Source: Fibrobacter sp. UWEL (GTDB lineage: Bacteria; Fibrobacterota; Fibrobacteria; Fibrobacterales; Fibrobacteraceae). Taken from it: a stretch of 64,000 bases of DNA. The stretch covers positions 186,001 to 250,000 of the forward strand of contig NZ_FRBE01000001.1 of assembly GCF_900142535.1 (NCBI RefSeq), written 5' to 3'. The translations under genes were made by a program, and so were the position numbers. This document shows, piece after piece, positions 30,377 through 35,597 of this stretch. Position 1 is the stretch's first letter. Every line of letters starts with the position of its first letter. The notes under the pieces are model-generated. The model saw only the letters and a list, made by a program, of their open reading frames with translations. It did not search any database and had not been told where the DNA came from.

Positions 30377-31798
30377 ATGGAATCTTATTTCTTTATTGGT
30401 GTTGCTGGCGTTGGTATGAGTGCCATTGCTCAGTACTTGTCTGGCCGCGGTGTTGAAGTTCGCGGTTCTGACCGTCAGTTTGGTGAATTTTTGGCTGGCA
30501 ACTGTGAGAAACCTCGCGTCATGGAACAGCTGGAAGAATGCGGCGTCAAGTGCTTTGCCCAGGATGGTTCCGGCATTGTGGCGGGACTCACTGCGGTTGT
30601 TGTAAGTACTGCCATCGAAGATACCAATCCGGATTTAAAGCGCGCCAAGGAATTGGGCGTTGCTGTAATGCACCGCAGCGAAATGCTGGCCAAGATTTCT
30701 AAGGAAGCAAAGACTATTGCCGTGAGCGGTACCAGCGGTAAATCTACGGTGACCGCCATGATTTATCACATTCTGCAGTACGCCGGATTACAGCCTTCTG
30801 TGATGACTGGCGCTGGTCTTGTGAACCTTCAGAAAGATGGTAAGATTGGTAATGCAGTTAGCGGTGCTGGCGAATGGCTGGTAGTTGAAGCTGACGAAAG
30901 CGATGGAACTCTAGTCCGCTACGAACCTGAAGTTGGACTCATCCTCAACGTGGACAAGGACCACAAGGAAATGAGCGAACTGCAGGAAATCTTCGGCAAG
31001 TTCCGCAGCAACATTTTGAACAACGGCAAGACTCTGATTGTGAATGACGCTCACCCGCTGGCAAAGCCTTTCAGCCAGGATCGTCACAACGACTTCGGTA
31101 CCGAAAGTTACGTCGGCGTTCAGGGAATCGATTTCCGCACCGATGGCCCGTCCATCATTTTCCGCTGCCGTCACAACAATGAACTGGTGAAGTTTACGGT
31201 TCCGCTGCCGGGCCGTCACAACATGGAAAATGCATTGGCCGCAACAGCCGCAGCACTCCAGGCCGGCGTAAGTCTGCGCACTTGCGCTGATGCCCTCAGT
31301 TCTTTCCCCGGCGTGTTCCGTCGTCATCAGATTCTTGGAACCTTCAACGGCGTTACTCTGGTGGATGACTTCGCTCACAATCCTGCAAAGATTTCCGCCA
31401 GCATCAAGAGCGCCCAGAGCTTTACTGCTGGCCGCGTTCTTGCCTGGTTCCAGCCTCATGGATTTGGTCCCACTCGTTTCTTGCGCAATGACCTGGTGGA
31501 ATTCATCAACAAGGCCCTGCGCGGTGCCGATGGTGAACGCGCTGCCGATTCCATGTACTTCAGCGAAATTTACTACGCTGGTGGTACTGTCACTCGCGAC
31601 ATCTCCGCAGGTGATTTGGCTAACGATTTGACGAAATTGGGTTCTGACGCGATATTCATTGAGAATCGTGATGAATGCGCCAAGGCTATGGTTTCTGCCG
31701 CAAAACCCGGTGATACCATCTTGCTTATGGGTGCCCGCGATCCTAGTCTTGAAAAATTTGCACAAAGTGTCCAGAAATTGCTGGAAAATAAGGCATAA
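30377..31798 (+). CDS. MurC-like Mur ligase
   Basis: A 473-residue ATP-dependent ligase of the Mur family with MurC architecture. The N-terminal Rossmann part has FFIGVAGVGMSAIAQYL. The central ATPase has SGTSGKSTVTAM at 117-128 and VVEADESDGT. The C-terminal domain has LVDDFAHNPAKI. MurC normally has GTHGKTT in the P-loop and DDYAHHPTE in the third domain, so this copy differs at diagnostic positions. It may be a paralogue with another substrate, for example in peptidoglycan recycling, while a canonical MurC lies elsewhere. It starts one base after the diguanylate cyclase gene and ends before a terminator. Confidence 0.75.
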   Translation: MESYFFIGVAGVGMSAIAQYLSGRGVEVRGSDRQFGEFLAGNCEKPRVMEQLEECGVKCFAQDGSGIVAGLTAVVVSTAIEDTNPDLKRAKELGVAVMHRSEMLAKISKEAKTIAVSGTSGKSTVTAMIYHILQYAGLQPSVMTGAGLVNLQKDGKIGNAVSGAGEWLVVEADESDGTLVRYEPEVGLILNVDKDHKEMSELQEIFGKFRSNILNNGKTLIVNDAHPLAKPFSQDRHNDFGTESYVGVQGIDFRTDGPSIIFRCRHNNELVKFTVPLPGRHNMENALAATAAALQAGVSLRTCADALSSFPGVFRRHQILGTFNGVTLVDDFAHNPAKISASIKSAQSFTAGRVLAWFQPHGFGPTRFLRNDLVEFINKALRGADGERAADSMYFSEIYYAGGTVTRDISAGDLANDLTKLGSDAIFIENRDECAKAMVSAAKPGDTILLMGARDPSLEKFAQSVQKLLENKA

Positions 31799-31848
31799 AT
31801 CAAGATCGTTTATCAAATACAGACTTATTTATTTGACAATATTCATTG

Positions 31849-31880
31849 AATCTCCGATAAATATATCGGAGATTTATTTT
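31849..31880 (+). terminator. Terminator-like hairpin directly before the unknown gene pair
   Basis: AATCTCCGAT (31849-31858) and ATCGGAGATT (31865-31874) form a perfect 10-bp stem with a 6-base loop, followed by TTATTTT and then the ATG at 31881. It may end the MurC-like transcript or act as an attenuator for the next gene. No Shine-Dalgarno sequence remains between stem and start. Confidence 0.6.
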
Positions 31881-33194
31881 ATGTTCAGAAAAGTAATTAA
31901 ACTAGATGCGTTTAAAAATTATGGTATAACAAGTCGAATTCCACAGGAGTGTGCATTTATAGAAACACTTCCTCAATCGGGTCGATTTTTACCTTTATTT
32001 TTTCAAGTTGAAGGTTTTTTGCAATCAGAATCATTAGAAGAATCATTAAAGAAATTTTTAGATAGAGAATGTCCGGAAATAAATGATTTTCTAGATGGCA
32101 AATCTTTTATGATAGATGATTGTTCTTTTGTGGTGAATTCTTATAGAGATGTTTTTCCTTCGGAAATTGCTGCATTGCAAAATTCAAAATTGATGATTCA
32201 AAATCAAAGTCCCTATATTGAAATACTTAATTTCTTTGATGATTGTGATTCGCCTGATTTTATTGAAACAGAAATCCAAAATGATTCTTGTAGAATAACG
32301 AATTATAAAATAGATTGCGATGCCACATCACGGCAGAAAGTATCGTTTATCGTTCATTTTGATTTGAAAATTCAGTTGAAAAAAAGAATACAGAGCTTGC
32401 CGTTAGAAAATTTTTTAGCGCCGATTCCTATTCCAAATAATATTCGTTTTTATAATGTCTTGAAAGTCGTTCTAGAAAATTCTGGACAGTTCTATATCAA
32501 TGAAAAAAAATGCATCAAGTTGAAAAATCGAAATCTAGAAGATTCTGAAAATTCATTTTTATGGGATATTCGTGATTATTTAGGAAAAACATCATTGGTC
32601 GATTATTTCAGTTTATTGCAAAATGAAATTGTGAATTCCTATTGGAAAGATAAATTGAATTTTTTCTCGGAATATAGGAAGGATGGTTTTGATTTATGTG
32701 GAAAACGGCTTTTATTTAGAGAATCATCAAATAATCCGGAATTAAATGCGCTTTATATTGATTTCCCCTTAAGGATGAAATCGCCTTTGTTAAAAGAACG
32801 TCTTGAAAAATTACTAGAAGGACTCGGCGCGGGGCTTGAAAAAATACAGTCGGGGGAAACGTTCCGTTCTCAATCCATAACCCATCCAAATAAAATATGC
32901 AAGGATTTATATATCCGTTTTTTAAAATCAAAAGAAGAGCCTGCATCTCAATTTTTAGATCGCCGGCAGAAATTTATAGACGGAATGAAATCCATCCAGG
33001 ACGGCCTGCAATCGGCCTTGCAATATCTTGAAAAAGAAGTGTGGAACAAGGAAAATGATAATCCAGTAGATCATTTAGGCGAAATTTATTTACAAACCAT
33101 GCGTTTAGATCCGATAGTATTCTCAGAAAGTGAAGTCCCTGCGTTGAAAAACTACGCCTGTCAAATGATCAGCGGGACTCTTCTGGAAATATAG
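31881..33194 (+). CDS. Unknown AT-rich protein, first of a tandem paralogue pair
   Basis: A 437-residue protein I do not recognise. No signal peptide or membrane segment is seen, so it is probably cytoplasmic. It is related to the next gene: INDFLDGKSFMIDDCSFVVNSY matches LNGFLDGNAVSLKKNVFSIQSY, VSFIVHFDLKIQLKK matches VHFQVRFDMDVSLKK, WKDKLNFF matches WRDKLMFW, and LDPIVFSESEVPALKNYA matches LDPLEYAESDNPHIKKLA. Two 60-base lines counted by hand are 27-28 percent G+C, against about 45-52 percent in neighbours. The ATG directly follows a hairpin and lacks a ribosome site. Confidence 0.7.
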   Translation: MFRKVIKLDAFKNYGITSRIPQECAFIETLPQSGRFLPLFFQVEGFLQSESLEESLKKFLDRECPEINDFLDGKSFMIDDCSFVVNSYRDVFPSEIAALQNSKLMIQNQSPYIEILNFFDDCDSPDFIETEIQNDSCRITNYKIDCDATSRQKVSFIVHFDLKIQLKKRIQSLPLENFLAPIPIPNNIRFYNVLKVVLENSGQFYINEKKCIKLKNRNLEDSENSFLWDIRDYLGKTSLVDYFSLLQNEIVNSYWKDKLNFFSEYRKDGFDLCGKRLLFRESSNNPELNALYIDFPLRMKSPLLKERLEKLLEGLGAGLEKIQSGETFRSQSITHPNKICKDLYIRFLKSKEEPASQFLDRRQKFIDGMKSIQDGLQSALQYLEKEVWNKENDNPVDHLGEIYLQTMRLDPIVFSESEVPALKNYACQMISGTLLEI

Positions 33195-33202
33195 AGGATG
33201 AA

Positions 33203-34546
33203 ATGGCTCGATTGTCTTTTAAATACAATGTCTTTAAAAATGAGGGATATAAAAACAGGGAACGGAACTCTACGGCATACATTCGCTTTATGGAGTATCC
33301 TGACGGCACACCGTTTCGTGGAACTTTTGAAGAGTACATGGATCTGGTGGAAAAGAATCCGAAACTCTTTAATTTCCCTCCTCTGGTGATTGAAACCACT
33401 GGATTTCTAGCATGCAGCAATCTCGGTAAAATTTGCAAGTCCCTTGCCATTAGAAAGTGCAGGGATTTAAATGGTTTCCTGGATGGAAATGCAGTTTCGC
33501 TTAAAAAGAATGTCTTTTCCATTCAAAGTTATGCCAGTCTTTTTCCGGATAAGGCTTCTGCCCAACGTTGCTTCAGCCGTATGATGGCAAATCATAGTCC
33601 CTTCATTTGTGTCAAGCCTCTTTTTGACGGAGTCTATCCTCAGACGGTATGCATTCACGAAGACTCTGTCAAGGTTCTTGGATTTACAAAGGAACCTCGC
33701 GACCATGACGACAAGGTGCATTTCCAGGTGCGTTTCGATATGGACGTCTCCTTGAAAAAGATCGTGCCTCCCATGGAAAAGTCTTGCCTTAAGAGTCCCA
33801 TTTGCTGGGAACATCATAAGCAATTCTATAGTCTTGCCAGAACGTTAAATGACCATCTGGATCATTTCTATTTTGTTGAATATCTTGATGCCGTGATGCT
33901 TAAGAACGAATCGGATGAAGAATCGGATCGGACCTTCTGTATGGAATTTCAGAATCAGATGGAAAATTGCCTTGTTGGGGATTACATCCGTACGCTTCAT
34001 CCCTTCCTTGGGTCCAGCGAATGGCGGGATAAACTGATGTTCTGGATCAATCCCGAAAAGTTTGATTTCAAGAAACCTCCCTATCAGTACATTTACTCCG
34101 GTTTCTATAACTTCATTTATGAAGTGCCCCATCCGACTTGCTCCAACAATTTGAGGTTGCACGTCAATTGGCATATGGACAGCCGACTGATTAATAACTT
34201 GAAAACTGCGTACGAGCAAATTGAGAAGAAAACCATGGAAATGATATTCTCCCGTATGCCCTACACGATTCAGGTGGGAGAATTTTATTTCGTAGCTCAA
34301 ATTCGAGATGTGCGGACCATCCAGAAAATGGAAGAACATTGCCTTCATGTTTTTAACGCCATGAAGAACTTCTATGATTACATCCAGCAGGAAATGATTT
34401 CGAGGGGAGAGGATTTCCTCCAGCACATTTCCCGAGTGGTGTTGGAACAGATCAAATTGGATCCTCTTGAATATGCGGAGTCCGATAATCCCCATATCAA
34501 AAAATTAGCTACCGCTTTGGTAAACGGTAGCTATTATGGAGAATAA
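33203..34546 (+). CDS. Unknown protein, second of a tandem paralogue pair
   Basis: A 447-residue protein I do not recognise, homologous to the gene just upstream over most of its length. It starts eight bases after that gene with GAGG as ribosome site, so the two form an operon. The shared blocks are GFLDGN (about residue 95), the HFQVRFDMDVSLKK strand pair (about 175), WRDKLMFW (about 275) and the C-terminal LDPLEYAESDNPHIKKLA. There is no signal peptide or membrane segment. Unlike its partner, its base composition (about 45 percent G+C in one hand-counted line) matches the chromosome. Function unknown; a terminator follows. Confidence 0.72.
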   Translation: MARLSFKYNVFKNEGYKNRERNSTAYIRFMEYPDGTPFRGTFEEYMDLVEKNPKLFNFPPLVIETTGFLACSNLGKICKSLAIRKCRDLNGFLDGNAVSLKKNVFSIQSYASLFPDKASAQRCFSRMMANHSPFICVKPLFDGVYPQTVCIHEDSVKVLGFTKEPRDHDDKVHFQVRFDMDVSLKKIVPPMEKSCLKSPICWEHHKQFYSLARTLNDHLDHFYFVEYLDAVMLKNESDEESDRTFCMEFQNQMENCLVGDYIRTLHPFLGSSEWRDKLMFWINPEKFDFKKPPYQYIYSGFYNFIYEVPHPTCSNNLRLHVNWHMDSRLINNLKTAYEQIEKKTMEMIFSRMPYTIQVGEFYFVAQIRDVRTIQKMEEHCLHVFNAMKNFYDYIQQEMISRGEDFLQHISRVVLEQIKLDPLEYAESDNPHIKKLATALVNGSYYGE

Positions 34547-34551
34547 TCCCT

Positions 34552-34576
34552 GCGGGTATTAACCCGCTTGTATTTT
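34552..34576. terminator. Bidirectional terminator after the unknown pair
   Basis: GCGGGT and ACCCGC pair around ATTA, followed by TTGTATTTTA. It separates the unknown pair from the convergent agmatine deiminase gene. Confidence 0.6.
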
Positions 34577-35597
34577 ACTTGCTTTCGTGCTTGCTCATGC
34601 AGTGCAAGCTTCCGCCTTCCTCAATCACAGTGCGGCAGTCGATGCCAATCACCTTCAGCTTGGGGAATACGCTTTCGAAATACTTCTGGGCGATTGCGTC
34701 CTTGGGGCTCTTGTACTTGGGGAAGATGAGAGCGCCGTTGGCATGAATGTAGTTCATGTAGCTAGCCGGAAGAATCTGTCCGTCGTCCAGAACGCGCTGG
34801 GGAGGCAGGGGCAGAGTGTCCACCTTTGCCTTCTTGCCGTAGTGAGCCTTCATGAATTCTTCTATCAAGTGTTTTGCTTCGGCGAGAATAGGAGTGTTGG
34901 GACTCTTCTTGGAATCTTCCCAGCACATGACCACGCGATCCTTGGCAACAAAGCGAGCAACGTTGTCGATATGACCGTCGGTGTGGTCGCCGTGGAGACC
35001 GTGGGGGAGAATCAGCAGGGACTTGAGACCGAATGCGTTGCAGAGAGCCTTGATCACCTTGGTCAGGTCCTTGTCTGCATTGCGGTTCTTGCCGATGAGA
35101 CAGTCCAGAGTGGTAATGCCCAGACCGTCGCCGTTCACTTCGATAGCGCCACCTTCAAAGATGTAAGGAACGCTCTTGTCCATCTTGTAGCCGAAAGCTT
35201 CTGCAATGGTAGAGGGGATGGCGTTGTCGAGGTTCCAGGGAGGGAACTTGGCGCCCCAAGCGTTGAACTGGGTTTCGGAAATTACAGTCTTGTCGCCCTT
35301 CTTCATAAAGAACGGACCGTAGTCACGAATCCAGATGTCGTTGGTCTTGAGGAAAATGACGCTGACGGGGAAGGGGCGGTCTGCCAATGCAAACTTTTCT
35401 TCGAAGGTCAAAAAGTTCTTGGAAGGAACCAGCACGTTCACTGGCTGGAATTCGCTGATGGTGCGGATCAGGTTGATGTAAAACTTACGGATGTTAACGC
35501 CGCGTTCGCCGTACCAGTTCTTTTTGTTGTGGGGGAAGGCGAGCCAAGTAGCTGCCTGTTCTTCCCATTCTGCAGGATATCTAACTGAATTTGCCAT
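34575..35597 (-). CDS. aguA: Agmatine deiminase
   Basis: A 340-residue enzyme of the peptidyl-arginine-deiminase-like fold that hydrolyses agmatine to N-carbamoylputrescine and ammonia. WIRDYGPFF, FEGGAIEVNG, HGDHTDGHIDNVARF and the C-terminal GGSLHCMS (catalytic Cys333) are the family motifs in order. It lies downstream of the N-carbamoylputrescine amidase gene on the same strand, 209 bases away across a repeat region. Together they supply putrescine from arginine-derived agmatine. No arginine decarboxylase is in the window. Confidence 0.92.
   Translation of the reverse strand: MANSVRYPAEWEEQAATWLAFPHNKKNWYGERGVNIRKFYINLIRTISEFQPVNVLVPSKNFLTFEEKFALADRPFPVSVIFLKTNDIWIRDYGPFFMKKGDKTVISETQFNAWGAKFPPWNLDNAIPSTIAEAFGYKMDKSVPYIFEGGAIEVNGDGLGITTLDCLIGKNRNADKDLTKVIKALCNAFGLKSLLILPHGLHGDHTDGHIDNVARFVAKDRVVMCWEDSKKSPNTPILAEAKHLIEEFMKAHYGKKAKVDTLPLPPQRVLDDGQILPASYMNYIHANGALIFPKYKSPKDAIAQKYFESVFPKLKVIGIDCRTVIEEGGSLHCMSKHESK

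Follow-up and report, generated by a model that had tools for sequence, protein, structure and literature searches.

Several pairs of a MoxR AAA+ ATPase and a vWA protein are known to act in the maturation of client enzymes, as CbbQ/CbbO does for rubisco and NorQ/NorD for nitric oxide reductase (PMC4660213, PMC13036017), and in the rubisco case the MIDAS of the CbbO vWA domain needs one acidic residue of rubisco, which is used for docking (PMC4660213). The VMAP-type ternary conflict systems (Kaur et al., 2020, PMC7159879) combine a MoxR and vWA core with a fast-evolving third component, and the effector-associated domains (EADs) described in the same work are portable modules with copies scattered over the genome, the presence of which correlates with one core system and one copy of which is fused to a core component (PMC7159879). 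For the DUF2201 metallopeptidase-vWA proteins that are paired with MoxR ATPases, no function is described in Pfam. Here, we compare with these systems a tandem gene pair, termed A and B, that lies in a 64-kb window of a Fibrobacter genome (the window being the whole stretch of DNA analysed). We put at about even (roughly 0.5) the probability that this genome encodes at least 11 proteins, A and B among them, which share a C-terminal docking tail and work together with one MoxR AAA+/DUF2201 metallopeptidase-vWA machine encoded elsewhere. Other genomes, contigs and loci are denoted below by our own handles (G, C and L, respectively).

The gene pair and its chromosomal slot

The pair and its surroundings comprise the following features:

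30377..31798, + strand: Mur-ligase family gene (mpl-like; Pfam Mur_ligase N/M/C), left border of a variable slot, conserved in sister species
31833..31859, + strand: promoter-like element TTGACA-N16-CGATA before gene A, predicted from sequence; the sole exact match in the window, and also located upstream of many other members of the family, of five MoxR genes and of a vWA gene
31847..31876, + strand: dyad or hairpin with a 13-pair stem and a 4-nt loop; it overlaps with the -10-like box, and 4 bp separate its end from the start codon (ATG) of A
31881..33194, + strand: gene A, AT-rich, encoding a 437-aa family member with a 51% identical orthologue in G069
33066..33191, + strand: C-terminal tail of A (VDHLGEIYLQTMRLDPIVFSESEVPALKNYACQMISGTLLEI), tail profile E 4.2e-12
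33203..34546, + strand: gene B, encoding a 447-aa family member, 63% identical in G069 and 59% in G011
34418..34543, + strand: C-terminal tail of B (LQHISRVVLEQIKLDPLEYAESDNPHIKKLATALVNGSYYGE), tail profile E 9.7e-14
34575..35597, - strand: agmatine-deiminase-like gene, conserved right border of the slot; product named by eye from sequence resemblance only

Genes A and B (437 and 447 codons) lie on the + strand with 8 bp between them and, as the initial annotation had proposed, are homologous: BLASTP aligned their products with 24% identity over 471 columns (E 2e-30), and the FLDG, HFDL/RFDM..LKK, W[KR]DKL and LDP..SE blocks that it had named were found in the pair. Sequence and profile searches with A and B returned no Pfam, NCBIfam or PADLOC match, and a profile of their family gave no convincing match to PDB sequences, which bears out the view that they belong to no known family. 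The contrast in base composition noted earlier is also real, with an overall G+C content of 32.6% for A and 42.3% for B (GC3 27% and 49%) in a window of 48.9%, although the earlier figures were slightly too extreme; gene A has 27-31% G+C across approximately its first 900 bp and 38-41% near its end. This contrast had been read as a sign that one copy arrived separately. Such a reading is unsupported, because the syntenic pair of G069 differs in the same direction (34.9 versus 39.5%) and most family members (40 of 52) are AT-richer than their own flanks.

The idea that the pair might be variable was assessed across related species, and the cargo of the slot indeed differs among them. The intergenic slot between the mpl-like and agmatine-deiminase-like genes (31799-34574 in the window; L074, L036 and L075-L081 elsewhere) may hold a GGDEF gene, a lipoprotein-like gene, A and B, B alone or nothing. 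It carries A and B in the genome of the window, a GGDEF gene together with A and B in G069, B without A in G011, one other gene in G041 and G071, and a gene of this latter type plus a second gene in G024 and on one G073 contig; it is empty in G009, G003, G046, G072 and on another contig of G073. Between species, dN was 0.42 for A and 0.28 for B with saturated synonymous sites (pS 0.72-0.83), so that a codon-based selection test yields no reliable ratio and supports only a faster protein change than in the two flanking genes, for which dN is approximately 0.035 and dS 0.7-0.9. As both genes are still open and alignable, they are maintained, yet fast-diverging or exchanged.

A family with a common C-terminal tail

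Nearly all members of the family share a tail of approximately 37 residues with the motif [DSN]P-x2-[YF]-x-[DE], even where the remainder of the protein is unalignable. The tail lies within approximately 25 residues of the C terminus in nearly all members, and within 5 in most. Among 48 tails the proline is invariant and the aromatic position is always Y or F (48/48), while 42 have D or E at the acidic position (and 4 have N) and 42 retain an alanine. Several proteins of 139-607 aa carry the tail although much of their remainder aligns weakly or not at all, and in G055 two identical 71-aa ORFs directly 5' of the MoxR gene have only a short body in addition to the tail. Exceptions occur in G071, where the tail is internal and a Fib_succ_major match, weak and below cut-off, lies C-terminal to it (L156:13596-14243 and L156:4239-5171). 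The tail profile gave no match to the MoxR and vWA proteins of the loci scanned.

A search of the whole genome for further copies, as suggested in the initial annotation, revealed 11 credible matches to the tail-only profile, encoded mostly by dispersed single genes; besides A and B there are three clear full-length copies and several divergent ones. Using an iterated family profile (E<=1e-3), we found matches in 11 of 80 Fibrobacter genomes, that of the window included, and in G164, which belongs to another genus of the same family, and none elsewhere among the 167 genomes of the phylum searched with iterated profiles. The family is thus present in 12 of 111 Fibrobacteraceae genomes, most of them (ten species) from a single Fibrobacter clade, with one further Fibrobacter and one member of the other genus. 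The tail-only profile (E<=0.1) matched 13 of the 111, one of which (G159) is a weak 18-residue match, leaving 12. These genomes vary in quality: that of the window is 99.98% complete, and several others are incomplete drafts (70-99%). Viral contigs and phage and plasmid collections contained no relatives of the family.

The initial annotation had proposed A and B as an undescribed two-component system, and had named many dispersed single copies with no pairing as evidence against itself. The first word stands, in that neither the databases nor the literature found hold a description of the tail-bearing family or of its association with a DUF2201 metallopeptidase-vWA protein. 'Two-component' is unsupported, because G011 carries B alone and the members are mostly dispersed single genes, which is much of what the annotation had named as counter-evidence; tandem pairs nonetheless occur in the genome of the window and G069 (A/B) and in G024, G073, G041 and G011.

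Approximately 55 further members, some of them near-duplicates, were gathered from the fetched loci. The only invariant columns in the alignment A2 are M1, G95 and P421, and the members have no conserved catalytic or active-site-like residues and no effector domain. An AlphaFold model obtained with three input sequences, divergent members being left out, was poor, with a mean pLDDT of 45, and reaches 70-84 only at residues of approximately 90-185, hinting at an alpha/beta domain in this region. Structure searches for the fold (Foldseek, best E 0.046 and probability 0.14; VIA-align, best Z 4.0 over residues 97-186) were judged uninformative. A homologous protein of approximately 475 aa to which no function was assigned adjoins members in the genome of the window (L028:3318-4745) and in G055 (L145:1101-2534).

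MoxR and vWA neighbours and a promoter-like element

Tail-bearing genes adjoin a MoxR gene, a vWA gene or both in five genomes of two genera. In G011 (L037) and G164 (L161) the gene order is member-MoxR-vWA. In G055 this order has intervening genes, with a member and the two tail-only ORFs preceding MoxR and vWA, and in G071 a tail-bearing gene lies 1 bp 3' of the vWA gene. In the genome of the window, the MoxR gene on contig C23 has one member in front of it, and the vWA gene on contig C2 has another. The window locus lacks the member-MoxR-vWA order, as do most copies, and most members, A and B among them, are not adjacent to either gene. The vWA gene itself is adjacent to MoxR in most genomes. 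Its products match PF13203 (DUF2201_N) and PF09967 (DUF2201) above cut-off, and those of ten genomes retain both HExxH and the MIDAS motif DxSxS.

The ATPase carries the Walker A motif GNHG[IV]GKTS and the Walker B motif [VI]LFLDE in each of the eight frames (of nine) that were read correctly, and the G069 gene shows GNHGIGKTS. It falls below the Pfam AAA cut-offs, with no AAA match in G011 and 13.1 bits for AAA_5 against a cut-off of 22 in G164, and a divergent homologue in G137 scored 23.1 bits. Judged from the Walker motifs, the pairing with the vWA gene and the weak AAA_5 matches, the partner ATPase is MoxR-like. PADLOC assigned no family to the members or to the MoxR and vWA proteins of G011. 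The MoxR frame of G055 (L213:2472-3769) is split into two overlapping frames, possibly by an assembly error or a frameshift. On contig C25 of G137 (L207) there are two MoxR-DUF2201 pairs that are divergent (27-32% identical) and have no tail-bearing neighbours; one of these pairs lies beside response-regulator genes.

Each genome has one MoxR of this subtype versus up to 11 tail-bearing proteins. The subtype, counted without the 27%-identical version of G137, was found in 10 of the 111 genomes, all 10 of which also have tails, an association that is strongly confounded by phylogeny (Fisher p of approximately 1e-12); tails without a detected MoxR occur in G009 (99% complete) and G047. Because 10 of the 12 tail-bearing genomes belong to one clade, within which CimA is 96-98% identical, there are only about two independent joint presences, too few pairs for a tree-aware test. 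Since the co-occurrence comes mostly from one clade, the stronger evidence is the adjacency, which spans two genera, two contigs of the window's own genome and the tail-only ORFs.

The promoter-like element before A provides a further feature in common. Exact matches to its consensus, TTGACA-N15-18-CGATA, number 42 in 539 kb of family-linked loci, where block shuffles lead one to expect approximately 1; the contrast with a single match in approximately 270 kb of four other locus sets is a guide and not a measurement, as these control loci are gene-dense and conserved. Of the 42, most lie directly upstream of members, MoxR genes, vWA genes, the tail-only ORF or, next to members, genes for small membrane proteins. 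With up to one mismatch allowed, the element precedes 29 of 57 members versus 14 of 261 other, neighbouring ORFs (Fisher 2.6e-15), and 4 of those 14 are themselves MoxR or vWA genes. The MoxR genes of G164, G071 and G082 showed no such element, and some other accessory genes, including those for GmrSD and RloA (one mismatch), also have it upstream. The consensus could be the marker of a regulon, or a promoter type common among accessory genes of the clade.

The initial annotation had placed a hairpin directly before A, and this is confirmed: the predicted 13-pair stem has a fold z of -4.4 and none of 200 shuffles was as stable. The -10-like box lies inside the dyad, an 11-bp dyad is retained in G011 through paired substitutions (CTCCGATA..TATCGGAG to CTCTGATA..TATCAGAG), and the dyad before A is shorter in G069. 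Other elements were observed beside members: a family of small multi-pass membrane proteins in G041, G055 and G024 (L137:9427-9843, L137:12479-12823, L145:2613-3107 and L040:4961-5512), several with the promoter-like element, and a terminator-like 19-bp perfect inverted repeat (CAAAAAGAGGATCAGTTCA...) approximately 100 bp 5' of a member in L035 (6840-8213, - strand).

Candidate partners of one MoxR-vWA machine

We consider the members most likely to be cytosolic adaptors or sensors, a diversifying set that would dock by way of their tails to one MoxR-vWA machine; A and B are then probably interchangeable partners of this machine and not a stand-alone pair. By analogy with rubisco and CbbO, the almost invariant acidic residue of the tail would be held by the vWA MIDAS. 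The MoxR ATPase would next remodel the bound protein or complex, and the HExxH domain may cleave the bound partner or the partner's target. The variable body would act as a target-recognising adaptor or sensor, and if the bodies are the recognition parts, the copies in the genome would together make up a diversifying repertoire that feeds this one machine, possibly in the service of conflict or defence. A family this patchy and fast-changing would be consistent with such a role, which would also resemble the logic proposed for VMAP systems (PMC7159879). One may tentatively go further and picture a hub-and-spoke conflict system, in which up to about a dozen dispersed, fast-diversifying adaptors or sensors serve one MoxR-vWA metallopeptidase, each connecting to it by a C-terminal acidic tail and all being co-expressed by way of a common promoter type.

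Alternatively, the link to MoxR-vWA may be incidental, in which case the members would be a lineage-specific orphan family amplified in one clade, and the tail its C-terminal helical hairpin with no role in docking. The single clade behind the main co-occurrence and the distance of most copies from MoxR would suit this explanation, as would a promoter-like element that may simply be a common accessory-gene promoter in the clade (the one-mismatch copies at GmrSD and RloA). Yet adjacency has arisen in separate events, at the MoxR and the vWA gene on different contigs of the window's own genome, in G164 and in G071, tail-only ORFs lie beside MoxR, and the tail persists in proteins with an unalignable remainder; we consider an incidental link improbable.

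That the members are effectors or toxins, kept inactive and then released or activated by MoxR-vWA remodelling or tail cleavage as the effector arm of a conflict system, appears unlikely. A multi-copy, fast-evolving and patchy family would be expected of it, and some copies adjoin GmrSD, RloA/RloB (AbiL-like), MmeI-like or UvrD-helicase genes, neighbours that were chosen by eye, so that no enrichment is claimed; many other copies are flanked by housekeeping genes, and the lack of conserved catalytic residues and of an effector domain in the members speaks against this reading. The same lack of active-site-like residues weighs on the proposal that the members are clients or enzymes whose maturation depends on MoxR-vWA, in the way that of rubisco depends on CbbQO and that of nitric oxide reductase on NorQD. 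While this is the known role of several MoxR-vWA pairs and is compatible with one machine and many tails, the bodies evolve far faster than the flanking enzymes and 71-aa tail-only proteins exist, and we regard maturation as distinctly unlikely. Docking of a diversifying set of adaptors or sensors to one machine remains our preferred reading.

With the VMAP-type ternary systems, the Fibrobacter loci share a fast-evolving third component and the MoxR and vWA core and, in G011 and G164 but not at most copies, the order third protein-MoxR-vWA. No known VMAP third component was found, as VMAP-C (PF20028) had no match in any of the 12 genomes at E<=1 and the members have no Pfam match. VMAP systems are one cognate set each and their vWA protein bears variable C-terminal effectors, whereas in Fibrobacter many dispersed partners correspond to one MoxR-vWA, and DUF2201_N, a metallopeptidase domain, lies at the N terminus of the vWA protein. 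The Fibrobacter system would work like a MoxR-vWA system and is not a VMAP system, because VMAP-C is absent, there are many partners per machine and the vWA protein carries a metallopeptidase domain. The tail resembles the EADs as a portable module with genome-scattered copies that correlate with one core system, but unlike an EAD it had no match among the scanned MoxR and vWA proteins, and the bodies that bear it are homologous orphan proteins, not known effectors.

The Fibrobacter vWA proteins fall into the PF13203/PF09967 putative metallopeptidase-vWA family, to which the tail-bearing proteins were not linked in the literature searched, nor was a many-to-one arrangement described for MoxR-vWA systems in the literature found. 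The motif common to the whole repertoire of candidate partners offers a testable handle on substrate choice by MoxR-vWA systems. With the chaperone pairs CbbQ/CbbO, NorQ/NorD and RavA/ViaA, the Fibrobacter system has in common a MoxR ATPase and a vWA protein with a MIDAS motif, and it differs from them in the HExxH domain of its vWA partner. The targets of those pairs are few conserved enzymes, in contrast to the diversifying paralogous repertoire in Fibrobacter, and, if true, the many-to-one layout would represent a novel type of MoxR-vWA system, found in bacteria that degrade fibre in the gut.
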